This document shows positions 13,831 to 25,358 of a stretch of 64,000 nt of DNA, one piece after another. Every line of letters begins with the position of its first letter. Position 1 is the stretch's first letter. A program made the position numbers and the translations under genes. The stretch is from NCBI GenBank assembly GCA_900457075.1, contig UGYN01000002.1, positions 1,178,001-1,242,000 on the forward strand, given 5' to 3'. A model generated the notes under the pieces. The model did no database searches. It was given only the letters and a program-made list of their open reading frames with translations, and was not told the DNA's origin. The stretch comes from Serratia quinivorans. Lineage in GTDB: Bacteria > Pseudomonadota > Gammaproteobacteria > Enterobacterales > Enterobacteriaceae.

Positions 13831-14217
13831 TTAGCGCCGGGCGTCAAACACCCGGATGCCATACTGCGGAAAAGCGGCGTCGGCGGAAACCAACGTCAGC
13901 CCTTCGGCCTGCGCCTGGGCGATCAGCATGCGATCAAAAGGATCCTGATGATGCGGCGGCAACTGGCCCGCCTGCTGACCGTGAAAGGCCGCCATCGGCA
14001 ACGGCAAAAAATCTTCTGCATCAATTATCTCGAAGATATCCTCCGGCAGCGTCAGCTTGCCCAACGCACGCTTAATCGAAATCTCCCAAATGCTGGCCGC
14101 GCTGACATACACCACATTGCCGGGATCGGCGATCTGCCTTCTGGCGTTCTCCCCCAGGCTGGGATCGTCTATCAGCCACCACAACAGCGCATGGGTATCC
14201 AGCAGCAGACGTTTCAC
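13831..14217 (-). CDS. vapC: PIN-domain toxin, VapC family
   Basis: A 128-residue PIN-domain ribonuclease, predicted to arrest translation by RNA cleavage when not bound by its antitoxin. The acidic catalytic residues are visible: Asp in LLLDTHALLWW near residue 7, Glu in SIWEISIK near 44, Asp in DPFDRMLIAQA near 95 and Asp in LVSADAAF near 112. The start overlaps the antitoxin stop by four bases (ATGA), the usual arrangement of such pairs. It sits between sbcC and mak, where E. coli has araJ. Confidence 0.9.
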   Translation of the reverse strand: MKRLLLDTHALLWWLIDDPSLGENARRQIADPGNVVYVSAASIWEISIKRALGKLTLPEDIFEIIDAEDFLPLPMAAFHGQQAGQLPPHHQDPFDRMLIAQAQAEGLTLVSADAAFPQYGIRVFDARR

Positions 14218-14447
14218 TCGTCGCCCTCAAACAGTGCGGTGATGTCTGCATCGCCATCATTAAAATTGTCCGGTACGGTGAATTGGCCCCTGGCAGCACC
14301 CGGTTTGCGGGTTTGCCCCTTGATGGCCACCAGCTGAACATAAGGCTTCCCTGCTTTCGCTATAATCACGGTCTCTCCCTGTGCGGCTTTATCCGCCAGT
14401 TGGCTCAGGTTGGATTTGGCTTCGTGCATATTGGCCTGAATAGGCAT
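14214..14447 (-). CDS. Phd/YefM-family antitoxin
   Basis: A 77-residue antitoxin. The N-terminal DNA-binding part (MHEAKSNLSQLADKAAQGETVIIAKAGKP) matches the Phd/YefM fold; the C-terminal acidic tail (NFNDGDADITALFEGDE) should wrap and neutralise the PIN toxin encoded immediately downstream. SD sequence AAGGAG precedes the ATG. The promoter region carries a tandem TTAGCTAA motif, likely the autoregulatory operator. Confidence 0.9.
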   Translation of the reverse strand: MPIQANMHEAKSNLSQLADKAAQGETVIIAKAGKPYVQLVAIKGQTRKPGAARGQFTVPDNFNDGDADITALFEGDE

Positions 14448-14458
14448 ACGCGATCTCC

Positions 14459-14553: not shown

Positions 14554-15461
14554 TTAAAGTTGCGGCCACAGCCACGCCGCGCCGCGCACGCCGCTGGAAT
14601 CGCCGTGAACCGCCTTGCGGATCGGGGTTTCACATTCGCCACCGAACACCCAGGATTTCACCAACTGCGGCACCCGCTGGTACAACCGATCCACGTTGCT
14701 CATCCCCCGCCCAGCACCACTACGTCCGGATCAAAAATATTGATCACGTGCGCCAGCGATTTCGCCAGCCGCAGCTCGTAACGGCTGATGGCCTGCTCCG
14801 CCACCGCATCCCCTTGTGCCACCAACGTCATGATTTCATGACCTTTTAGCGGATTACCGCTCAGGCGAGCATAGTCGGTGGCAAAGCCGGTACCGGAGAT
14901 AAAGGTTTCAATACACCCCTGCTTACCGCAATAACAGGGAACCTCTGCGCGAAAACGCAGCTCGTCATCATCCAGCCACGGCAGCGGGTTATGCCCCCAC
15001 TCGCCAGAGATACCGTTCCCCCCCGAGTGCACCTGGCCGTTAATCGCCACTCCGGCGCCACAACCGGTACCAATAATCACCGCGAACACGGTTTGCTTGC
15101 CGGCGGCTGCACCATCGGTGGCTTCCGACACCGCCAGGCAGTTGGCATCGTTGGCAATACGCACTTCACGGGTCAGCATCGCCGACAGGTCTTTATCCAG
15201 CGGTTGGCCGTTGAGCCAGACCGAGTTGGCGTTTTTGACCAGCCCGGTATAGGGCGACAGCGTGCCGGGAATGCCGACGCCGACCGAGCCTTGCTGGCCG
15301 GTATTTTCTTCTGCCAATTTCACCAGACCGGTAATCGCATCCAGCGTTTGCTGATAGTCATGGCGCGGCGTAGCGATGCGATGGCGGAACAGTTCCTGCC
15401 CATCGTTGGCCAACGCGATCACTTCAATTTTGGTGCCACCCAGGTCGATACCAATGCGCAC
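14554..15461 (-). pseudogene. mak: fructokinase Mak (ROK family), one-base frameshift
   Basis: Mak phosphorylates fructose and mannose with ATP. From the GTG start (GAGGAG seven bases upstream; [13 protein letters not shown]) the frame runs 254 codons through the ATP motif, the zinc motif [10 protein letters not shown] and [12 protein letters not shown], then meets TGA at 14702-14700. The sequel [11 protein letters not shown]...[12 protein letters not shown] lies in another frame. One more G in the minus-strand G5 run (14704-14708) would restore 302 residues, exactly the length of E. coli Mak. The lesion may be a sequencing error. E. coli mak also neighbours rdgC; here the sugar island lies between. 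Confidence 0.9.
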
Positions 15462-15671
15462 GATTTTTCTCCTCAATGCACAACAACGTTGCCACAGCCT
15501 AATATATTCGGTTGCCAGGATCACTCAATCAGCGCCGAGTGTGACGGTGATGGCAATTTCCGCATCAGACTCACACCGGCTGCCGCTTATTAATTAGCCA
15601 TCGGGTACACTGCATTTAACCAGTTAACTTGTTGATAACATTTTCCGCATCCTAAAATCCGGAGAGCAGCG

Positions 15672-16412
15672 ATGAAACCTGCCGTATTGATCGTCGACGA
15701 CGACCCTGCCATTTGTGACCTGCTCTGCGATGTCCTCAACGAGCATGTGTTTAGCGTGCATGCCTGCCACCGGGGCAGCGAGGCGTTAACCTTACTCAGC
15801 CAGCAACCGGATATTGCTCTGGTACTGCTTGATCTGATCCTGCCGGACACCAACGGCCTGCTGGTGTTGCAGCAGATCCACCGTCTGCGCCCGGATCTGC
15901 CGGTGGTGATGTTGACCGGCCTGGGCTCCGAGTCCGACGTGGTGGTCGGTCTGGAAATGGGGGCCGACGACTACATTGCCAAACCCTTTAACCCACGCGT
16001 GGTGGTCGCCCGCGCCAAGGCGGTGTTACGCCGTACCGGTGCGCTGGCGCTGGAGCCGGCCACCGCCGGTCGGAACAAACCCGAAGGCTGGCAGTTCAAC
16101 GGCTGGTGCCTGGACACTGCCCGCTGCACCCTACACAACCCGCAGCGACAACCGGTCGATCTGACCCAGGGCGAATACGGCCTGCTGCTGGCGCTGGTAC
16201 AGCACGCGCGCAAAGTACTGACCCGCGATCGCCTGCTTGAGCTGACCCACAGCGAAACGCTGGAGGTGTTCGATCGCACCATCGACGTGCTGATCATGCG
16301 GCTACGACGCAAGATCGAGATTAATCCGCATCAACCCGAGTTGATCCGCACCATTCGCGGGCTGGGCTATGTTTTCGCCGCCGACGTCAGCCAGCCGGTG
16401 GCTGCCGCCTGA
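15672..16412 (+). CDS. OmpR-family response regulator of the sugar island
   Basis: A 246-residue regulator: receiver domain with the acidic pair (VDDDP), phospho-acceptor Asp in VLLDLILPDTNG near residue 54 and Lys in IAKPFNPR near 103, then a winged-helix DNA-binding domain ending IRTIRGLGYVFAAD. No kinase gene adjoins it. The only kinase nearby is the hybrid kinase on the far side of the sugar operon at 22746-25358, so the two probably form a split two-component system controlling that operon. Its 3' end overlaps the convergent PfkB kinase gene by 26 bp. SD GGAGAG precedes the ATG. Confidence 0.88.
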   Translation: MKPAVLIVDDDPAICDLLCDVLNEHVFSVHACHRGSEALTLLSQQPDIALVLLDLILPDTNGLLVLQQIHRLRPDLPVVMLTGLGSESDVVVGLEMGADDYIAKPFNPRVVVARAKAVLRRTGALALEPATAGRNKPEGWQFNGWCLDTARCTLHNPQRQPVDLTQGEYGLLLALVQHARKVLTRDRLLELTHSETLEVFDRTIDVLIMRLRRKIEINPHQPELIRTIRGLGYVFAADVSQPVAAA

Positions 16413-17400
16413 TATAATCCTGCAGTTCCGACAAGGGGCGTGCGCCATCGATCGCGTTGGCGCGCAGTAGATTGAACCGCGCACAGGCATGCGCCAATTG
16501 CAGCGTCTCTGCCAAAGGCCAGTTTTCATGGCTGGCGTACAGCACCCCGGCGCAGAAGGCATCCCCGGCACCGACGCTGCCGACGATTTCAGTTTCGCCA
16601 ACCTGCCACGACGGTTGCCAGCGCGCTTCACCGCCTTTCTCCAGTCCATATGCACCTTCCGGGCAGTGGATCACCACTCGTCGCCGCACACCGGCCAGCA
16701 ATAGCTGTTCTGCGGCCTCGGCCATCAACTGCGGTTGTACCGCACCATTGGCCGCACGCAATGCCAGCCCGGTAAACTCACCGGCCTCCAGCTCGTTGAT
16801 CACCAGATAATCCAGCCAGCGCAGCGCCGGTAGCACCAGCGGTCGATAGCGCGGATCGCCCTGGCGCGACACTAAATCCAATGAAGTTTGATAACCACGC
16901 TGCTGCATTTGCGCCAGCAGGCGGGCGCTGCGGGTGCCAAACTCCTCGTCCGGGCGATCCAGGCTGTCGAGCAGCAGCAGATAACCCAGATGGAAAATTT
17001 TATGTTCACTGTGCAGTTGGTCGAAATCGGCCAGATCCAACTGCCGGTTGGCCCCCGGCGCGTGAAAAAACGTCCGTTGGCCGCCCGGCTCGGTCATCAC
17101 TTGCGACATGGCGGTCATCGCCGTTTCGCTGCGTCGAACGAAATCGCTGTCGACCCGGTGCTGCGCCAGCATTTGCAGAATGTAGTCACCGTCTGCGTCG
17201 CAGCCGATCAACCCGAGCGCCGCCAGCGGCAGCCCGGTCTCCATGCGTGCCAGCGTCAGCAGCACATTAAGCGGCGCACCGCCGGTAGCGCGCTGGCTAT
17301 GTTCAATCTCAACCAGCCAGCCCGGCTGCGGCCAGTGCGCAATTTGATGCACATGATCCACCAGCATGTTGCCGGCCGAAACAATGCCACGCCGGCTCAT
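16387..17400 (-). CDS. PfkB-family sugar kinase of the lyxose/ketose operon
   Basis: A 337-residue ribokinase/PfkB-type kinase with the N-terminal GNMLVDHVHQI, the GGAPLNVLLTLARM substrate-binding region and the C-terminal signature VGSVGAGDAFCAGVLYA, including the catalytic Asp. The ATG at 17400 shares one base with the aldolase stop (TGATG); a GTG one codon upstream is the alternative. Being last in the operon after an aldolase and an isomerase, it probably phosphorylates the ketose made by the isomerase, so that the aldolase can split it. The position phosphorylated is not known from sequence. Confidence 0.85.
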   Translation of the reverse strand: MSRRGIVSAGNMLVDHVHQIAHWPQPGWLVEIEHSQRATGGAPLNVLLTLARMETGLPLAALGLIGCDADGDYILQMLAQHRVDSDFVRRSETAMTAMSQVMTEPGGQRTFFHAPGANRQLDLADFDQLHSEHKIFHLGYLLLLDSLDRPDEEFGTRSARLLAQMQQRGYQTSLDLVSRQGDPRYRPLVLPALRWLDYLVINELEAGEFTGLALRAANGAVQPQLMAEAAEQLLLAGVRRRVVIHCPEGAYGLEKGGEARWQPSWQVGETEIVGSVGAGDAFCAGVLYASHENWPLAETLQLAHACARFNLLRANAIDGARPLSELQDYIRRQPPAG

Positions 17401-18260
17401 CACAACCGCCCGGCGCTGCCGAAAATATGCATCTGCTGCTGCACCACTTCGCTGATCGACTGCTCCACCGCCAGCAACACTTCGGCGAATTCATCGTAAA
17501 TCGCGTGGCGTTGCGTTATCCGCTGCTCCACCGCCCCCAGCGCCGCCTGAGACATGCCGGTATAGAAATTGATTTTGTGAATTCCCAGGCCAATGGCGCG
17601 TTTGAAATCGGCGTCGCTGATGCCGGAACCGCCGTGCAGCACCAGCGGGATCCCCGCCTGCTGCTGGATAGCCGCCAACCGCTCGAAATCGAGCTTCGGC
17701 TCGCCTTTATATTTGCCGTGCGCATTGCCAATCGCCACCGCCAGCGCATCAATGCCGGTCAATTCGACAAATTCGCGCGCCCGCTGCGGGTCGGTAAATT
17801 TGTTGCTGTCGGCCTCGCCGTACAGAGCGCCGCCTTCGTCACCGCCGACCGCCCCCAGCTCAGCCTCAACCGAGACGCCGACCGCGTGACACATGCGCAC
17901 CACTTCCTGCGTCTGACGCACGTTCTCTTCGTAGCTCAGGCCGGAACCGTCGAACATCACCGAGCTGAATCCCAGCCGCAGCGCCTGCACCACCGCCTCG
18001 AAATGCAGACCGTGATCCAGATTCAACACCACCGGGATATCGTGCTGCGCCACTTCGCTTTTAATCGCCGCCACCAGCGACTCCAGCGAGACGTACTTAA
18101 AGTGCACTTCGGCAATATTGATAATAAACGGCGATCGCGCCGCCTGCGCCGCAGCAAACAACGCACGCAGGAAATGGCTGTCGAGCACGTTGAATGCGCC
18201 CAGCGCATAGCCGTGTTGGCGAGCCTGCGCCAACCCCTGCGCCAATGAAATTAATGCCAT
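17400..18260 (-). CDS. class II ketose-bisphosphate/ketose-phosphate aldolase (GatY/KbaY/FbaA family)
   Basis: A 286-residue zinc-dependent aldolase. Visible motifs are VVLNLDHG (zinc-binding His near residue 82), SVMFDGSGLSYEEN, VEAELGAVGGDE, GNAHGKYKGEP (zinc His), LVLHGGSGI (zinc His) and KINFYT. The length equals that of GatY/KbaY-type tagatose-bisphosphate aldolases. Such enzymes cleave ketose phosphates to glycerone phosphate plus an aldehyde. In this operon the substrate could be a ketose 1-phosphate or 1,6-bisphosphate derived from the imported sugar. It lies 11 bp after the isomerase gene. Confidence 0.9.
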   Translation of the reverse strand: MALISLAQGLAQARQHGYALGAFNVLDSHFLRALFAAAQAARSPFIINIAEVHFKYVSLESLVAAIKSEVAQHDIPVVLNLDHGLHFEAVVQALRLGFSSVMFDGSGLSYEENVRQTQEVVRMCHAVGVSVEAELGAVGGDEGGALYGEADSNKFTDPQRAREFVELTGIDALAVAIGNAHGKYKGEPKLDFERLAAIQQQAGIPLVLHGGSGISDADFKRAIGLGIHKINFYTGMSQAALGAVEQRITQRHAIYDEFAEVLLAVEQSISEVVQQQMHIFGSAGRL

Positions 18261-18271
18261 GCTGGTTCTCC

Positions 18272-18958
18272 TTAAGCGATAAAGCGCAAATATTCATGAC
18301 ACAGCAACCACTGCGGTGGCTGGTCCTCTTCAATCTGGCTAAAGCGGCTGAGCGGCTGCAGGAAACGGTTGTCGTTATCGTCATCGTTTACCGTCGAGAC
18401 TTCCCCTACCAAAACGTCTCCGAAGCCCTCTTCGCCCCAGAAACTGTGATAGATACCCGGCGTGAGACAGATGCTTTCTCCCGGCGCCAGGCGCAGGCGC
18501 GAACCGGCAGCGTGGGTCTGTCGACAGCCATCCAGTGTCACGGTCACGGCGGTCTCGGCCAGCCCTTCCCGAGAGTCTGCGTTGTGCAGTTCAACGATCA
18601 GGTTGCCGCCGCCACGGTTAATAATGTCTTCCCGCTTACGCCAGTGGAAATGCATTGGCGTCACCTGAGCTTCGCGGCAATGCATGATTTTCTCCGCATA
18701 ACCTTTGGCATAAGGCTGCCCGCCGGGTGAACCGTTGCGCAGGGTAAACAGCGTTAGCCCCTTGCGGGCAAAATCATCGTCGCCGAACGCCGTAACGTCC
18801 CAACCCAGTTTCAGGTCAAACACCTCCTGCCACGGCTGGCGATCGAGCTGCTGCCAGACCGAGGGGCTAAAATGGGCGAAGGGCGGCAGCTGGACGTCGA
18901 AACGGGCAAAAAAGTGTTGGGTTTGCTGCAGAATTTGATTCACGGCGGAACGGTTCAT
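18272..18958 (-). CDS. D-lyxose ketol-isomerase family protein
   Basis: A 228-residue cupin-fold isomerase of the D-lyxose isomerase family. Metal ligands are visible in PMHFHWRKREDIINRGGGN (two His and a Glu) and in LTPGIYHSFWGEEGFGDVLVGEVSTVNDD (His and the following acidic residues). Enzymes of this family, including one characterised from Serratia proteamaculans, interconvert D-lyxose and D-xylulose and also act on D-mannose/D-fructose. Its neighbours (importer, kinase, aldolase) suggest the physiological aldose is brought in by the ABC system. It has GGAGGTACC just before the ATG. Confidence 0.88.
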   Translation of the reverse strand: MNRSAVNQILQQTQHFFARFDVQLPPFAHFSPSVWQQLDRQPWQEVFDLKLGWDVTAFGDDDFARKGLTLFTLRNGSPGGQPYAKGYAEKIMHCREAQVTPMHFHWRKREDIINRGGGNLIVELHNADSREGLAETAVTVTLDGCRQTHAAGSRLRLAPGESICLTPGIYHSFWGEEGFGDVLVGEVSTVNDDDNDNRFLQPLSRFSQIEEDQPPQWLLCHEYLRFIA

Positions 18959-19021
18959 GGTACCTCCGCAAGCGGTAGGGGAATGAGGGGCCCAGTCTGG
19001 CTGGGCCCCGCCGATAGCAGG

Positions 19022-19966
19022 TTATTTCACCGTCCAGCCTTTGTAGCTGCCGATATTGTTTTTATCGATCATGGTTACCGGGATCAGCACCGGAGCGGTT
19101 GGCGCAGGTTTACCCTGCAGAATGTCGTAACCGATCTCGACCGCCTTGGCCGCCATCACCTGCGGATCCTGCGCCGGCGTCGCGACAAACAGCGATTTTC
19201 CGCCACGCTTGAGCGCCTCTTCACCGTCCGGCGATCCATCCACGCCAACGATAAAGAACTCGCTGCGCTGCGCCTGTTTGGCGGCCAGATCGGCGCCGAT
19301 CGCCGTAGGATCGTTAATTGCAAACACGCCGTCGATCTTCGGATTGGCCGCCAACAGCGCGGTCATGATCTCCAGCCCGCCTTCACGGCTGCCCTTGGCG
19401 TTTTGGTTATAAGACAGCAGTTTGATCTCCGGGTGTTTCTTCAACTCGGTCATGCAGCCTTCGACCCGGTTTTGTACCGCGGACACCGGTGGCCCGTTGA
19501 TGATCACCACGTTGCCCTTCTCTTTCAGGCGATCGCTGATGTATTTACAGGCCATCGCGCCGGCCTGGGTGTTATCCGAGGTGATGGTGGCATCGGCACC
19601 TTCGGCCGCCACGTCAACCGCCACTACCACGATACCGGCATCCTTGGCGCGTTTTACCGCCGGGCCGATACCCTTGGAATCCGCGGCGTTCAGGATGATC
19701 ATATCGACCTTGGCAGCGATAAAGTTATCGATCTGCGCCACCTGCTGGCCGAGATCGTAACCGCTCGACACCAGCGTCACGTTGACCTTATCGCCGGCCA
19801 ACTCACGCGCCTTCATTTCTGCACCCTTGGTGATCTGGACAAAGAACGGGTTGGCCAAATCGCCCACCGTCACCCCAATCGATTTCAACTCTTTTGCCTG
19901 CACCAACGAGGCACTGCCGAGCGCGGCAGTAACCAGCAAAGCGGTAATCAATGGCTTGAAACGCAT
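19022..19966 (-). CDS. RbsB-like periplasmic sugar-binding protein
   Basis: A 314-residue periplasmic binding protein of the ribose/galactose-binding family (type I fold). The start MRFKPLITALLVTAALG, preceded by GAGGAA, gives a clean signal peptide cut after VQA; the longer frame upstream to 20038 has no such peptide. The core pattern IGVTVGDLANPFFVQITKGAEM and later FAINDPTAIGADLAAKQA are typical. It supplies the sugar to the RbsC/RbsA-like proteins encoded just upstream in the same operon. The order ATPase-permease-binding protein is the same as in many carbohydrate CUT2 systems. Confidence 0.92.
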   Translation of the reverse strand: MRFKPLITALLVTAALGSASLVQAKELKSIGVTVGDLANPFFVQITKGAEMKARELAGDKVNVTLVSSGYDLGQQVAQIDNFIAAKVDMIILNAADSKGIGPAVKRAKDAGIVVVAVDVAAEGADATITSDNTQAGAMACKYISDRLKEKGNVVIINGPPVSAVQNRVEGCMTELKKHPEIKLLSYNQNAKGSREGGLEIMTALLAANPKIDGVFAINDPTAIGADLAAKQAQRSEFFIVGVDGSPDGEEALKRGGKSLFVATPAQDPQVMAAKAVEIGYDILQGKPAPTAPVLIPVTMIDKNNIGSYKGWTVK

Positions 19967-20065
19967 AGTGTTTTCCTCATTATTTTCCGATCTACGAAAA
20001 CCTGCCCCGGTGGGCGCCGACCTTTCTTTATCACTCACCCCGCAGCTTGAAAGACACCGGGTAAG

Positions 20066-21091
20066 TTAGTGTTGGTAATTGCGGGTGCGATATTTGTCGA
20101 TTAGCACAGCTATGATGATCACCGCCCCCTTGATCACCAATTGCCAGAAGTATGAGACGCCCATCAGCGTCATGCCGTTGTTCAGGGTGGCGATAATCAG
20201 CGCCCCCACCAGCGTGCCGGTAATGGTGCCAATGCCGCCGACAAAGCTGGTGCCGCCGAGGATCACCGCGGCAATCGCATCCAGCTCATAGCCCATGCCG
20301 AGGTTGCCGTTGGCGCTGTACAAGCGTGAGGCACTCATTATTCCCCCCAGCCCTGACAGCAAACCGCTCATGCCGTAGACGAACAGCAGCACCGCACCGA
20401 CCTTAATCCCGGTCAGGCGTGCCGCCTGCATGTTGCCACCCACCGCGTAGATATGTACCCCCAGCGTAGTGCGGCGCAGAATGAACCAGCACAGCGCGAT
20501 CACGGCAAAGGCGATAATTACCAACCAGGGGATCGGCCCCAGATACGAGTTGCCGATCCATTCGAAACTGATATCGGAATTGATGATGGTGGTGCCGTCG
20601 GCCAGCAGATAAGCCGCGCCGCGCAGTGCGGTATAGGTCCCTAGCGTGACAATAAAGGGTGGTAAACCGGCGTAGGCCACCAGAAAACCGTTAAACAATC
20701 CCATGCCCAAGCCGGCCAGCAGCGCCAGTGGGATCGACAGCCCGGCCAGCCCCGGCATCAGTGAAACCGCCATCGCCACCACCGCCGTGGTGCCCAGCAT
20801 CGAGCCAACAGAAAGATCGATACCGCCGGTCAGGATGATGAAGGTCATACCCGCCGCCAAAACGATGTTAATCGACGCCTGCCGGGCAATATTCAGCAGG
20901 TTGGCGTCGGTAAAGAAATTCGGTGCAACAAAGCCGAAAACGGCGACGATCAGGATCAATATCGGCAAAATGCCGACGGTTTGCATCATATCGCCCAACA
21001 ATGCCCGTTTCAGCGTGGGATTTTTTGCGGCGGGTGGCAGCGGGTTCGAAGTCATGACAGGCTCCTTGAGCGTAGGGATAGAATTATTCAT
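20066..21091 (-). CDS. RbsC-like sugar ABC transporter permease
   Basis: A 341-residue CUT2-family inner-membrane permease with 8-10 hydrophobic segments. The motif [15 protein letters not shown] near residue 95 and [35 protein letters not shown] near the C terminus are diagnostic of RbsC relatives. The ATG at 21091 overlaps the ATPase stop by eight bases and has GGAGG upstream. A second ATG at 21055, after AAGGAG, is an equally good start and would remove 12 residues. Confidence 0.9.
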
Positions 21092-22610
21092 GGCTGGCCG
21101 CCTCCAGGGCGGGTTCGACGCCGGTGGCCAGCGTCATAATGCTCTCCTGGCTGATCTCTGCGCCGCTCAATTCCCCGGCGATACTGCCTTCGTGCATCAC
21201 ATAAACCCGGTCACTCATGCCAACCACCTCGGGCAGTTCACTGGAGATCATCAGGATCGCCACTCCCTGCTGCGCCATCTGACTCATGATGCGATAAATT
21301 TCGCTTTTGGCACCCACGTCAACGCCGCGAGTGGGCTCATCGAGGATCAGAATGCGCGGGCCGATCGCCACCCAGCGTGAAATCAGCAGCTTCTGTTGGT
21401 TGCCGCCGGAAAGCCCACCGGCCCGCACCTGAGCATGCGGCACGCGGATATTCAGCAGGCCGATGGCGTCGCTGGAAATACTCTGAGCCTTACGCCGATT
21501 CAGCAGGCCATAACGGCCGTCACGCTCCAGCGTCGCCATCACGATATTTTCATGCGCTGCCAGATCGAGAAACAGGCCCTGCTCTTTGCGGTTTTCGGTG
21601 AGAAAACCGATGCCCAGCGCAATGGCGTCACGCGGTGAACGGATATTGACCGGCTTACCGTCAATTTCCACCGTACCGCCGCTGGACTTGCGCACGCCGA
21701 AAATCAGCTGCGCCAGTTCGGAACGGCCGGCACCCACCAGCCCGGCAAGGCCGACGATCTCACCGGCACGCACCTGCAGGCTGACCGGTTTCACCTTCTT
21801 GCCGTCGGTCAGGCCATGCAGCGTAAGGCGCGGTTCGCCCACCGTAATGCCCTGCTCCTTGTTGAACAGATCGCTCAACGGGCGGCCCACCATCATGCGT
21901 ACCAATTCGCTGGCGGACAGTTTGTCGCGCATCAGGCTGCCAACATACTGGCCGTCGCGCAGCACGCTAACGCGATCCGACAGCTCGTAGACTTCCGCCA
22001 TGCGATGGCTGATGTAAATGATCGCCATCCCCTCATCGCGCAGGCGTTTGATCAACTCAAACAGCCGATGCGTCTCACGCGAAGAAAGCGCCGCCGTCGG
22101 TTCGTCCATCACCAGAATGCGGCTGTTGCGGTGCAACGCGCGGGCGATTTCCACCTGCTGCTGTTCGGCAATGGTTAATTTCATCACCCGATCGCCGGCG
22201 CTGAACTGCGCGCCCAAACGATCGATGACTTTCTGTGCTTCCAGCAACATCTGCTGGCGCTTCACCAGGCCGCCGCGCTGGATCTCGCTGCCCAGAAAAA
22301 TGTTCTCCGCCACCGTCAGATTCGGTGCCAGATTCATTTCCTGGTAAATCAGCGTGATGCCCGCCGCCAGGGCATCTTTTGGCCCTTTAATGGCAAACGG
22401 CTGCCCATCGATAAAAATTTCCCCGCTGCTGGCGATATAAGCGCCGGCCAATATTTTCATTAAGGTGCTTTTACCCGCGCCGTTTTCACCCATCAGCGCG
22501 TGGATCTCACCGCTATAAACCGTCAGGTTGACGCCCTTCAGCGCGTAAAACTGACCAAAACTCTTGGCGATGTTGTGCATTTCCAGGATCGGGGTCGCGC
22601 TCATCGTCAT
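21084..22610 (-). CDS. RbsA-like sugar ABC transporter ATP-binding protein
   Basis: A 508-residue double ATPase of the CUT2 family, first gene of the sugar operon. The first cassette has Walker [10 protein letters not shown] near residue 40, the signature [15 protein letters not shown] and Walker [12 protein letters not shown]. The second has the degenerate Walker [11 protein letters not shown], the signature [14 protein letters not shown] and Walker [13 protein letters not shown]. This is the usual asymmetry of RbsA/XylG/MglA proteins. Confidence 0.93.
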
Positions 22611-22745
22611 ACCTCGGGTTGCGGTTCGGATTGAGTGCAGTTAACCACGCATAAATAAATGCAAAATGTCAGCGGCCGTTCATCTTTGTCATATTGTTAA
22701 TGGGACGGGGATTTATAATGCGGACAGTCAGTTACGGGGGATCCA
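22611..22745. promoter_or_regulatory. divergent control region of the sugar operon and hybrid kinase
   Basis: This 135-bp gap separates the first gene of the minus-strand sugar operon from the plus-strand kinase gene. A TATAAT hexamer at 22714-22719 is a plausible -10 for the kinase. TGTCA occurs twice (near 22667 and 22687) and could belong to a response-regulator repeat, but no confident operator can be defined. Confidence 0.4.
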
Positions 22746-25358
22746 ATGCGCAGACTGCCTTTCCTTGCCGGTGCACGTGGGCGCCTGCTGATGTTCAACC
22801 TGTTGGTAGTGGCGGTGACGCTGATGGTCAGCGGCGTGGCGATCGTCGGCTTTAACCATGCGGGCAAGCTGCAGGAACAAGTTCAGGCGCAAACGCTAAA
22901 TGAGATGAACGGCAGCATGGCGCTGAGCCGGGATACTTCGAACGTGGCGACCGCCGCCATTCGGCTATCGCAGGTGGTGGGTGCGCTGGAGTATCAGAGC
23001 GAGTCAGCCCGGCTGAAGCAAACCCAGCTGGCGCTGCAGGCCTCGCTCAGCCGACTGGCGGACGCTCCGCTGGCACATAGCGAGCCGGAGCTGGTTCAAC
23101 GCATCATCAGCCGCAGCAACGCGTTGGAAACCAGCGTGACCCGCATGCTGGATCTCGGTCACGCACGGCATCTGCAACGCAACATTCTGCTCAGTGGGCT
23201 GTATCAGGCGCAGAGCACGCTGCGGCATATCGCCAGCCTCAACCAACGTAATAATCAGAACCCGCCCTCGCTGCCACTGCTGAGCCAGATCGACCGGCTG
23301 CTGGCGATCGCCATTCAAACCCCGACGCCCAAGGCCGCCGCCCAGCAACTCGACAGCGTGATGGCCTACTGGCCGCAGCACAGCCCGGATGCCTTGGTCG
23401 ACGAGAAAATGCGCCAGTTTCGCGACAGCGAACAACGCCTGCTGCCCGAAACGCTGGAGCTGGAGCAAAGCGATCTGGCCCTGGCCTATTACACCTACCA
23501 TATCAAAGCCTTAGTAGCGATGCTCAATGACGACATCAATCTCTACGTACAGAAGGTGGCAGACGAGTCGGAGCTGCGCACCCATCAAACCCATCGCGAA
23601 CTCAGCTCCATCAGCTGGTTTATCGGCCTGTTCGCCCTGCTGGCGCTGGTGATTACCGGCTTCGCCGGGTGGTATATCTACCGTAATCTGGGATCGAACC
23701 TGACGGCGATCGCTGGCGCCATGACGCGGCTGGCGCGTGGCGAACGTGAGGTCAGCGTACCGGCACTGCAGCGCCGTGACGAACTGGGCGATTTGGCGCG
23801 GGCATTCAACGTCTTTGCACGCAATACCGCCTCGCTGGAGCAAACTTCTCGCCTGCTGAAAGAGAAAAGCACCCAGCTGGAAACTACCTTTTTGGCAATG
23901 CGCGACGGCTTTGCCCTGTTTGATAACGACGGCCAACTGGTGGTATGGAACCCGCAGTATCCGTTGCTGCTGGGGCTAAACGAACACCAGTTGCACCGGG
24001 GGCAACACTACCGTGAACTGCTGCAACACGTGACGCCCCCGGCGGGTCAGCGCTGGGAAGCGGTGCTGGCCAACCTGTCCAGTGAACTGCCGCAGCCGCA
24101 GGAACTGCGCCTGAGCGACGGCCGCACCGTCGAGCTGCGCTTCAGTCCGGTACCGAACCGTGGGGTGGTCAACGTGGTGTTGGAGCGTACCGAGCGCAAA
24201 GCGCTGGAAGAGGCGCTGCTGCACAGCCAGAAAATGAAGGCGGTCGGTCAGCTCACCGGCGGCCTGGCGCATGATTTTAACAATCTGCTGGCGGTGATTA
24301 TCGGCAGCCTGGAACTAACCACCCAACAGACTCAGGACGCCCAAACCGAACAGCGTATTGCCCGGGCGCTGAAGGCCGCCGAACGCGGTGCACAGCTCAC
24401 CCAGCGGCTGCTGGCATTTTCGCGTAAACAGGCGTTGCATCCGCAGGCCATCACGCTACAGACGCTGGTAGAAAACCTGCAGGAATTGCTGCGTCATTCA
24501 CTGCCCACGACGTTGTCGCTAAGCATTGAGACTCAGCGGCCCGGCTGGCCGGCGTGGGTGGATGCCAATCAGTTGGAAAACGCGCTGATCAACCTGGTAG
24601 TCAACGCCCGGGATGCCATGGAAGGCCGCAGCGGCGTGGTCAAGATCCGTATCTATAACCAACGAGTGGTGCGCAGCGGTGGCAAAAAACAGGACATGGT
24701 GGCGCTGGAGGTGATCGACACCGGCTGCGGCATGTCGGAGGAAGTGAAAGCGCAGGTGTTCGAACCTTTCTTCACCACCAAGGCAGTCGGCAGCGGCAGC
24801 GGGCTGGGGCTGTCGATGGTTTACGGCTTTGTTCGCCAGTCCGGCGGCCGGGTGCAGATTGAAACCGCACCGGGCGAAGGCACTCTGGTGCGTCTGCAAC
24901 TGCCGCGCGCCCCGGCACCGGCAATCGCCCAAGCACCGCCCCTGCCGCTCGAAGAAAGCGACGGCACCGACAGTCTGGTATTGGTGCTGGAAGATGAAAA
25001 TGACGTGCGTCATACGCTGTGCGAACACCTGCATCAGCTCGGCTACCTGACGCTGGACTGCGCAGACAGCCATGAAGCGCTGGCGCTGCTGCGCCAGACG
25101 CCGGATATTGGGGTGCTGGTTAGTGACCTGATGCTGCCGGGCGAACTGGACGGCGTGCAGGTGATTGGGCTGGCGCGGGAGATTAATCCGCGCCTTACCG
25201 CGCTGCTGATCAGCGGCCAGGATATACGCCGTCACCACGAAGACACACTGCCCAACGTTGAACTGCTGCGCAAGCCTTTCAGCCAGCGGCAACTGGCGTT
25301 GGCACTGCAACGGGCACGCCGCTCAAACGCGGCCGCTGACGCAATTCGGAGGGAATGA
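22746..25358 (+). CDS. hybrid sensor histidine kinase of the sugar island
   Basis: An 870-residue membrane kinase. In order: a transmembrane segment at about 14-36, a long periplasmic helical sensor region to about 290, a second transmembrane segment (WFIGLFALLALVITGFAGWYIY), HAMP, a PAS-like domain (RDGFALFDNDGQLVVWN), the H-box GGLAHDFNNLLAVI near 512, the ATP-binding boxes NLVVNARDAM, DTGCGM, EPFFTTK and GSGLGLSMVYG, and a C-terminal receiver domain (VLVLEDENDVR, Asp in VLVSDLMLPGE, Lys in LLRKPFS). No HPt domain is present. It is divergent from the sugar operon. Its likely partner is the OmpR-type regulator at 15672-16412. Confidence 0.9.
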   Translation: MRRLPFLAGARGRLLMFNLLVVAVTLMVSGVAIVGFNHAGKLQEQVQAQTLNEMNGSMALSRDTSNVATAAIRLSQVVGALEYQSESARLKQTQLALQASLSRLADAPLAHSEPELVQRIISRSNALETSVTRMLDLGHARHLQRNILLSGLYQAQSTLRHIASLNQRNNQNPPSLPLLSQIDRLLAIAIQTPTPKAAAQQLDSVMAYWPQHSPDALVDEKMRQFRDSEQRLLPETLELEQSDLALAYYTYHIKALVAMLNDDINLYVQKVADESELRTHQTHRELSSISWFIGLFALLALVITGFAGWYIYRNLGSNLTAIAGAMTRLARGEREVSVPALQRRDELGDLARAFNVFARNTASLEQTSRLLKEKSTQLETTFLAMRDGFALFDNDGQLVVWNPQYPLLLGLNEHQLHRGQHYRELLQHVTPPAGQRWEAVLANLSSELPQPQELRLSDGRTVELRFSPVPNRGVVNVVLERTERKALEEALLHSQKMKAVGQLTGGLAHDFNNLLAVIIGSLELTTQQTQDAQTEQRIARALKAAERGAQLTQRLLAFSRKQALHPQAITLQTLVENLQELLRHSLPTTLSLSIETQRPGWPAWVDANQLENALINLVVNARDAMEGRSGVVKIRIYNQRVVRSGGKKQDMVALEVIDTGCGMSEEVKAQVFEPFFTTKAVGSGSGLGLSMVYGFVRQSGGRVQIETAPGEGTLVRLQLPRAPAPAIAQAPPLPLEESDGTDSLVLVLEDENDVRHTLCEHLHQLGYLTLDCADSHEALALLRQTPDIGVLVSDLMLPGELDGVQVIGLAREINPRLTALLISGQDIRRHHEDTLPNVELLRKPFSQRQLALALQRARRSNAAADAIRRE

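Follow-up and report, generated by a model that had tools for sequence, protein, structure and literature searches.

The lmv/lmu sugar island of enterohemorrhagic Escherichia coli and its probable counterpart in Serratia quinivorans

The described island and the Serratia locus

The genes lmvR, lmuKAIZYX, and lmvK constitute island OI167 of Escherichia coli O157:H7 EDL933 and were described in mBio in 2023 (PMC10128022, whose main text is the source for the enterohemorrhagic E. coli (EHEC) system throughout). In EHEC, LmvK and LmvR activate the lmuKAIZYX operon. Mannose induces both the operon and lmvR, and lyxose also induces the operon. Deletion of lmvR, lmvK, or the operon leads to poorer growth on lyxose under microaerobic conditions, and over-expression of LmvR in a manA deletion strain permits growth on mannose by way of the operon. 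LmuK has fructose kinase activity, the LmvR footprint extends from -41 to -62 of lmuX and contains the repeat ATATGA-N3-ATATGA, and the system has been linked to type III secretion (PMC10128022). Here we analyze a stretch of 64,000 nucleotides from Serratia quinivorans (contig UGYN01000002.1, positions 1,178,001 to 1,242,000; termed the window), taken from a genome assembly of 5,875,301 bases. Positions 15672-25358 of the window very probably hold the Serratia form of lmvR-lmuKAIZYX-lmvK, a grading that covers our best explanation as a whole. The eight genes are as follows.

15672..16412, plus strand: lmvR, OmpR/PhoB-type response regulator with phosphoacceptor D54 (Pfam Response_reg and Trans_reg_C; 71% identical to E. 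coli LmvR)
16387..17403, minus strand: lmuK, PfkB-family sugar kinase (PF00294; 67% identical to E. coli LmuK)
17400..18260, minus strand: lmuA, class II aldolase in which the DPR arginine of bisphosphate aldolases is missing (NF005284, 550.5 bits, cut-off 406; residue comparison)
18272..18958, minus strand: lmuI, D-lyxose/D-mannose isomerase (NCBIfam NF051472, 438.5 bits, cut-off 350; solved relative 3kmh/3mpb)
19022..20038, minus strand: lmuZ, periplasmic sugar-binding protein (PF13407; PDB 4rwe, 558 bits)
20066..21091, minus strand: lmuY, permease of an ATP-binding cassette (ABC) importer (PF02653; 84% identical to the E. coli protein)
21084..22610, minus strand: lmuX, ABC importer ATPase at the head of the six minus-strand genes (two ABC_tran stretches; 82% identical to the E. 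coli protein)
22746..25358, plus strand: lmvK, hybrid histidine kinase with HAMP, PAS, HisKA (H509), ATPase, and receiver (D794) domains (Pfam)

The locus is orthologous to the OI167 system. Compared with the E. coli copy L030, from strain PT62, it has the same eight genes in the same order and orientation, the same acceptor residues, and the same operator position. The best-matching stretches are 65-84% identical, and the N-terminal half of lmvK is 60% identical. On the minus strand, the six catabolic genes follow one another head to tail; lmuK overlaps lmuA, and lmuX overlaps lmuY. The regulator gene lmvR converges on lmuK so that their 3' ends share 26 bases, and lmvK diverges from lmuX. 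The signal peptide, judged by eye, suggests that translation of lmuZ likely starts near 19966. The island lies between mak and rdgC. No RNA family at its gathering threshold and no tRNA gene was found in the window.

A sequence-only reading of the window had proposed these eight genes, their families, and their placement. An open reading frame check, in which all eight are open, and NCBIfam and Pfam profile scores agree with it. The reading had also treated the sugar-catabolism genes as one unit, which is borne out by publication of the same eight-gene unit in EHEC (PMC10128022). It included neither that prior description nor mannose as a published substrate, and was likewise silent on the operator, the PAS difference, and the variable enzyme cargo. 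The comparison of loci below adds a constant core, optional enzymes, PAS variants, and an aldolase residue. Gene order and orientation are repeated in other genera. Because of this recurrence, coupled with the co-occurrence of the isomerase and lmvK described below, the arrangement is not attributable to chance.

The strain survey in the main text of PMC10128022 places the island almost exclusively in EHEC. The island is not restricted to EHEC: of 5426 E. coli genomes, 408 contain DNA matching the kinase, aldolase, and isomerase genes. Many E. coli carriers (for example, L030) are O157 strains, and others are pigeon, frog, and poultry strains and O169:H41. That paper is the sole account of the eight-gene system that our literature search found. 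Its main text, as distinct from its supplements, contains no occurrence of the whole words Serratia, Yersinia, or PAS. No earlier report of the PAS difference or of cargo variation was found in the literature on the system, which was not searched by those names.

Regulators, operator, and sensor kinase

The isomerase, lmvK, and lmvR were searched for in 392 genomes of the window's family group. Matches to the isomerase occur in 73 genomes, 67 of which have a match of at least 60% identity. Of 82 isomerase places, the 67 at this level were counted as islands, and L157 (52%), L158-L170, and G330 (43%) were left out. lmvK is present in 78 genomes and lmvR in 79. Both regulators are found in 65 of the 67 genomes with a close isomerase, the exceptions being G192, which has no lmvK, and G201, in which neither was found. 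For isomerase and lmvK, Fisher's test gives p ~3e-58, a value uncorrected for shared ancestry. In 13 further genomes, both regulators are present and a close isomerase is not.

The sequence-only reading had held that the regulator and hybrid kinase at opposite ends of the block form one system belonging to the operon, a claim that regulators not found with the operon would contradict. The presence of both regulators in 65 of the 67 close-isomerase genomes means that refutation by non-co-occurrence fails, and the EHEC genetics (PMC10128022) also support the claim. We examined 80 loci, comprising the window, 66 loci around other close isomerases, and the 13 isomerase-free regulator loci. Both regulators lie within the fetched stretch at 74 of these, and 72 of the 74 also carry lmuX, lmuY, and lmuZ. 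At L109, L127, L132, and L133, the missing regulator sits beyond the fetched stretch; L128 (from G201) and L144 (from G192) are the exceptions to regulator pairing. The phosphoacceptor D54 of LmvR is kept in all 74 aligned proteins, and H509 and D794 of LmvK are both kept in 72 of 73, with a gap in the other.

Unrelated neighbors flanking the operon by chance might produce the same layout, and the position of both genes on the strand opposite the operon, ~6.3 kb apart, would fit such an origin. However, the co-occurrence of the two genes, their retention where the enzymes are absent, and the EHEC genetics and footprint (PMC10128022) make it extremely improbable. Chance neighborhood was rejected on the co-occurrence counts from the 80 loci and 392 genomes. 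LmvK presumably phosphorylates LmvR, either directly or through a phosphorelay. No histidine phosphotransfer (Hpt) protein is encoded in the island, and the five Hpt matches of the genome lie elsewhere, in frames of 692-1061 residues.

A candidate LmvR operator lies in the spacer between lmvK and lmuX.

22680..22694, minus strand: LmvR operator-like direct repeat ATATGACAAAGATGA, 70 nucleotides before the lmuX start, matching 11 of the 12 positions of ATATGA-N3-ATATGA

When up to three mismatches are allowed, the published repeat has 40 matches in the 64 kb (22.8 expected), and 22680-22694 is the only one with one mismatch or fewer. None of 200 shuffles scores as well. Among 88 island loci, 79 were scored, four were skipped because the spacer exceeds 700 bases, and five had no usable pair of ends. 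The best match is on the lmuX strand, 63-72 nucleotides before lmuX, in all 79 scored islands, and the operator is thus conserved in sequence: 12 of 12 positions agree in 25 islands, 11 in 39, 10 in 13, and 9 in 2. The two islands with nine, L092 and L186, are at chance level (shuffles do as well in 36 and 21 of 200, respectively), and all others are equaled by 0-5 shuffles in 200. No match with up to three mismatches was detected before lmvR in the window, although mannose induces lmvR in EHEC.

The LmvK proteins differ in their domain content. The window protein has 870 residues and includes a PAS domain (Pfam PAS_7, residues 385-488), whereas the E. coli protein has 753 residues and no such domain. 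The two are 60% identical up to residue 379 and 66% identical from residue 479, with residues 380-478 missing from the E. coli protein. We scored this stretch in 96 island loci, of which 90 are distinct (the duplicates are L002/L091, L009/L096, L011/L124, L012/L134, L013/L135, and L015/L092). The stretch is present in 55 loci, absent with the two halves abutting in 30, and partial in three, and the remaining two have no lmvK. Presence of the domain changes at least four times on the island tree, and two of these changes are forced by well-supported branches. Natural LmvK variants with and without the PAS domain offer a way to test what LmvK senses.

Enzyme cargo and the mak/rdgC site

The distribution of genes suggests that the regulators and importer are the constant core of the island and that the isomerase, aldolase, and kinase are optional cargo. 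Among the 72 complete cores, 47 have all three enzymes, 12 have only the isomerase, and seven have none. Four have only the kinase (a partial one at L179), one has the isomerase and kinase, and one has the aldolase and kinase. The aldolase is never found without the kinase in the 80 loci, and the kinase occurs without the aldolase in five. Such an asymmetry is in keeping with an aldolase whose substrate is the product of the kinase. On an unrooted tree made from four proteins (86 rows, two loci dropped), the cargo changes at least 16 times; gain cannot be separated from loss because the tree is unrooted. The kinase-only island L182, sister of the E. coli copy, looks like a recent loss.

The operator is kept in most islands that are poor in enzymes; control of the importer presumably persists in them, with host kinases standing in. 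Frames of at least 70 residues that might encode replacement kinases are absent from the core gaps left by lmuA and lmuK at L108, L121, L141, L142, and L155. Frames in the gaps of L140, L144, L148, and L014 are not sugar-kinase-like by eye, an inspection made without a profile search. At L093, L094, L097, and L136, extra genes (fimbrial, transposase-like, or unknown, by eye) occupy the lmuK-lmvR interval or the lmvK-lmuX interval. Next to the enzyme-free cores L175 and L185 are a ROK-like gene (27% to mak) and lmuX/lmuY-like genes (41-45%) of another importer of this type. These may be the allose operon, whose place OI167 takes in EHEC.

Variable cargo raises the question of what the core imports. 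Its real substrate might be a ketose (D-fructose or D-xylulose) or a wider set of sugars, the isomerase only widening the range. The complete cores that lack an isomerase (kinase only, 4 of 72; aldolase and kinase, 1 of 72; no enzyme, 7 of 72) agree with this idea, as does the operator: of 11 isomerase-free loci scored, 10 keep it at 10-12 of 12 positions, and the other is L186. However, 60 of the 72 complete cores keep the isomerase, mannose and lyxose act as inducers of the operon in EHEC (PMC10128022), and enzyme-free cores could be decaying. We therefore regard a ketose or wider-range substrate as rather unlikely.

The sequence-only reading had further suggested that the block was inserted as a unit between mak and rdgC. 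Among 30 genomes of the window's genus, 27 full rdgC loci were surveyed, with two extra copies and one split rdgC set aside. The neighbor of rdgC is lmvK in 14 loci (including the window), mak in 12, which are empty sites, and neither in one. Alignment to the 12 empty sites defines the extent of the block.

15507..25337, no strand: extent of the block relative to empty mak/rdgC sites

Homology to the empty sites breaks off at 15506 and picks up again at 25338 in most cases (25329-25339 over all), so that the second junction falls inside the last six codons plus stop of lmvK. The window has no counterpart of ~60 bases of the empty sites. Within the genus, the block is either there in full or missing altogether, in line with that reading. 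Its arrival is another matter: the mak/rdgC position is also occupied in other genus groups (L092, L104, L124, L134, and L152), so that loss is as possible as insertion.

Whether the block is instead an old resident of mak/rdgC that was lost from the empty-site genomes is, in our estimate, an even question, and this history would be compatible with the identity proposed here. Occupation of the site in four genus groups (g1, g48, g78, and g103) speaks for it. So does a stretch in the genus's empty sites that corresponds to the lmvK end of occupied genomes and was not seen by eye in E. coli K-12. However, a similar stretch exists in nearby empty-site genera (27 of 32 at best, in L193; by eye in L194-L197) and could be old DNA upstream of rdgC, and the mak/rdgC islands do not form one clade on the island tree.

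Two further observations concern the DNA on the mak side of the block. The fructokinase gene mak (14557-15461, minus strand) has a frameshift near 14703-14712, about 253 residues into the 302 of the protein, whereas mak in the 16 other loci compared gives a single alignment to residue 300-302. The frameshift may be an assembly error because it is located at a run of G. At 13831-14450 (minus strand), a PIN-domain gene is preceded by a short frame that resembles the start of an antitoxin by eye, and the two are perhaps a toxin-antitoxin pair. Its presence at this spot varies in Serratia, with a partial match in L002 and none in L004 or L008.

The phosphate position and comparison with known systems

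LmuI of the window is 97-98% identical to LmuI of Serratia proteamaculans (L001 and L002), and the assayed isomerase of an S. proteamaculans KCTC strain is probably the same protein or a near copy. Relative to lyxose, mannose has a reported kcat/Km of 0.2152 with the S. proteamaculans isomerase and 0.7529 with the E. coli enzyme (PMC6746899, in its kinetic data). LmuK finds its best solved relatives among ribokinases (57.6 bits), and YdjH scores 42 bits, which is not decisive for the position of the phosphate.

The metal-binding and catalytic residues of the aldolase, equivalent to KbaY D82, H83, H180, and H208, are conserved in all 60 orthologues; we take them to be the zinc histidines and catalytic aspartate of class II aldolases. 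The DPR arginine is absent from all 60 (by alignment, the facing residue is Ala or Phe, and only the absence is firm). It is present in the seven bisphosphate aldolases compared, namely E. coli KbaY, GatY, and FbaA and four others from PDB (a fifth PDB entry, AgaY, is KbaY). We take this residue to be Arg331 of E. coli FbaA, which presumably holds the 6-phosphate; a literature search gave no paper on the point. YdjI, annotated as a 1-phosphate aldolase, likewise lacks it. Absence of the arginine from LmuA thus favors a ketose 1-phosphate as substrate, and we lean slightly toward a pathway in which LmuK phosphorylates carbon 1 and LmuA cleaves the ketose 1-phosphate. The confinement of the aldolase to loci that also have the kinase points the same way. 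A D-xylulose 1-phosphate route for lyxose had been put forward in the sequence-only reading.

Several observations weigh against this pathway or against the reading as a whole. The aldolases of a second cluster, described below, have DPN at this position in 13 of 13 cases, and a Clostridiales aldolase is gapped there. Because the second cluster also lacks the arginine, such a loss is not enough by itself to mark an enzyme as a ketose-1-phosphate aldolase. In the curated families, the aldolase still carries the name 1,6-bisphosphate aldolase. The 13 of 80 loci with regulator genes and no close isomerase indicate that selection for the core does not always act through lyxose/mannose isomerization. 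In EHEC, the island's role in mannose use is seen only when manA deletion is combined with over-expression of lmvR, and deletion of lmuK or lmuA has no effect on growth on lyxose (PMC10128022). Therefore, another route suffices on lyxose in that organism.

That dispensability would be expected if the ordinary 5- or 6-phosphate route operates, with the island providing import and isomerization, XylB, Mak, or LmuK phosphorylating carbon 5 or 6, and LmuA being accessory. The 12 of 72 complete cores with an isomerase and neither kinase nor aldolase are in keeping with this route. The fructokinase gene mak adjoins four such isomerase-only cores (L096, L124, L134, and L152) and L010, and a search of the window genome gave eight matches to FGGY kinases (seven of them over the cut-off), none of which was assigned to XylB. 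However, mak is frameshifted in the window, and the route leaves unexplained why the DPR arginine is missing from all 60 copies of an aldolase found at none of the 80 loci without the kinase. We consider the 5-/6-phosphate route a substantial possibility, if somewhat the less probable outcome.

The second cluster comprises 13 loci (L158-L170) that combine a relative of the isomerase (44-49%) with a class II aldolase (40-43%), and a mak-like match is present in eight. L158 has, by eye, a further aldolase and phosphotransferase system-like genes. No match to the lmv regulators exceeded the thresholds used in the cluster. The isomerase and a PfkB kinase are also adjacent in two gut-type Firmicutes contigs (L017 and L018). 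In a third (L016), an aldolase follows, and the kinase is represented only by a short piece (57 bits) with no long frame.

By analogy, the Serratia copy would be expected to behave as in EHEC. In the working that we propose, the membrane kinase LmvK would respond to sugar and phosphorylate LmvR, which would bind the direct repeat before lmuX and turn the operon on. LmuXYZ would import D-mannose, D-lyxose, or related sugars, and LmuI would convert D-mannose to D-fructose and D-lyxose to D-xylulose. LmuK would phosphorylate the ketose, perhaps at carbon 1, and LmuA might then yield glycerone phosphate together with glycolaldehyde from xylulose or glyceraldehyde from fructose. Where cargo enzymes are absent, host kinases presumably stand in. 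The sequence-only reading had arrived at the same succession of import, isomerization, phosphorylation, and cleavage, which is also the order of the hypothetical scheme in the main text of PMC10128022. A fuller picture is tentative and, taken together, somewhat doubtful: a sensor-regulator-importer core with exchangeable cargo, a natural LmuK/LmuA ketose-1-phosphate route (via xylulose 1-phosphate from lyxose and fructose 1-phosphate from mannose), and a PAS domain serving as one input that was lost in the E. coli lineage.

Two known systems resemble the proposed chemistry. YdjH and YdjI of E. coli K-12, an L-glycero-L-galacto-octuluronate kinase and 1-phosphate aldolase, also pair a kinase gene with a class II aldolase that lacks the DPR arginine. 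However, their substrate is different, and no isomerase, ABC importer, or two-component system is annotated beside ydjH/ydjI. A pathway built in E. coli and yeast, as outlined in a review (PMC6443609), follows the same proposed course, from xylulose through xylulose 1-phosphate to glycolaldehyde and glycerone phosphate. The review's account calls that pathway synthetic, and it uses a human or rat kinase and a human or yeast aldolase, whereas the lmu route would be natural and would start from lyxose. If the 1-phosphate route is true, the island holds a natural counterpart of this pathway.

The closest known system is that of OI167. Both islands have a lyxose/mannose isomerase; they differ in genomic site, which is mak/rdgC in the window and yjcS/yjdP in E. 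coli. The window island is a known system found in a further host group, and the chemistry proposed for it is plausible. Two questions from EHEC, namely the role of LmuK and LmuA and the signal sensed by LmvK, become directly testable. Through this comparison, a system known from EHEC is found across a wide range of enterobacteria, mostly others, and the sequence of its operator is conserved among them.

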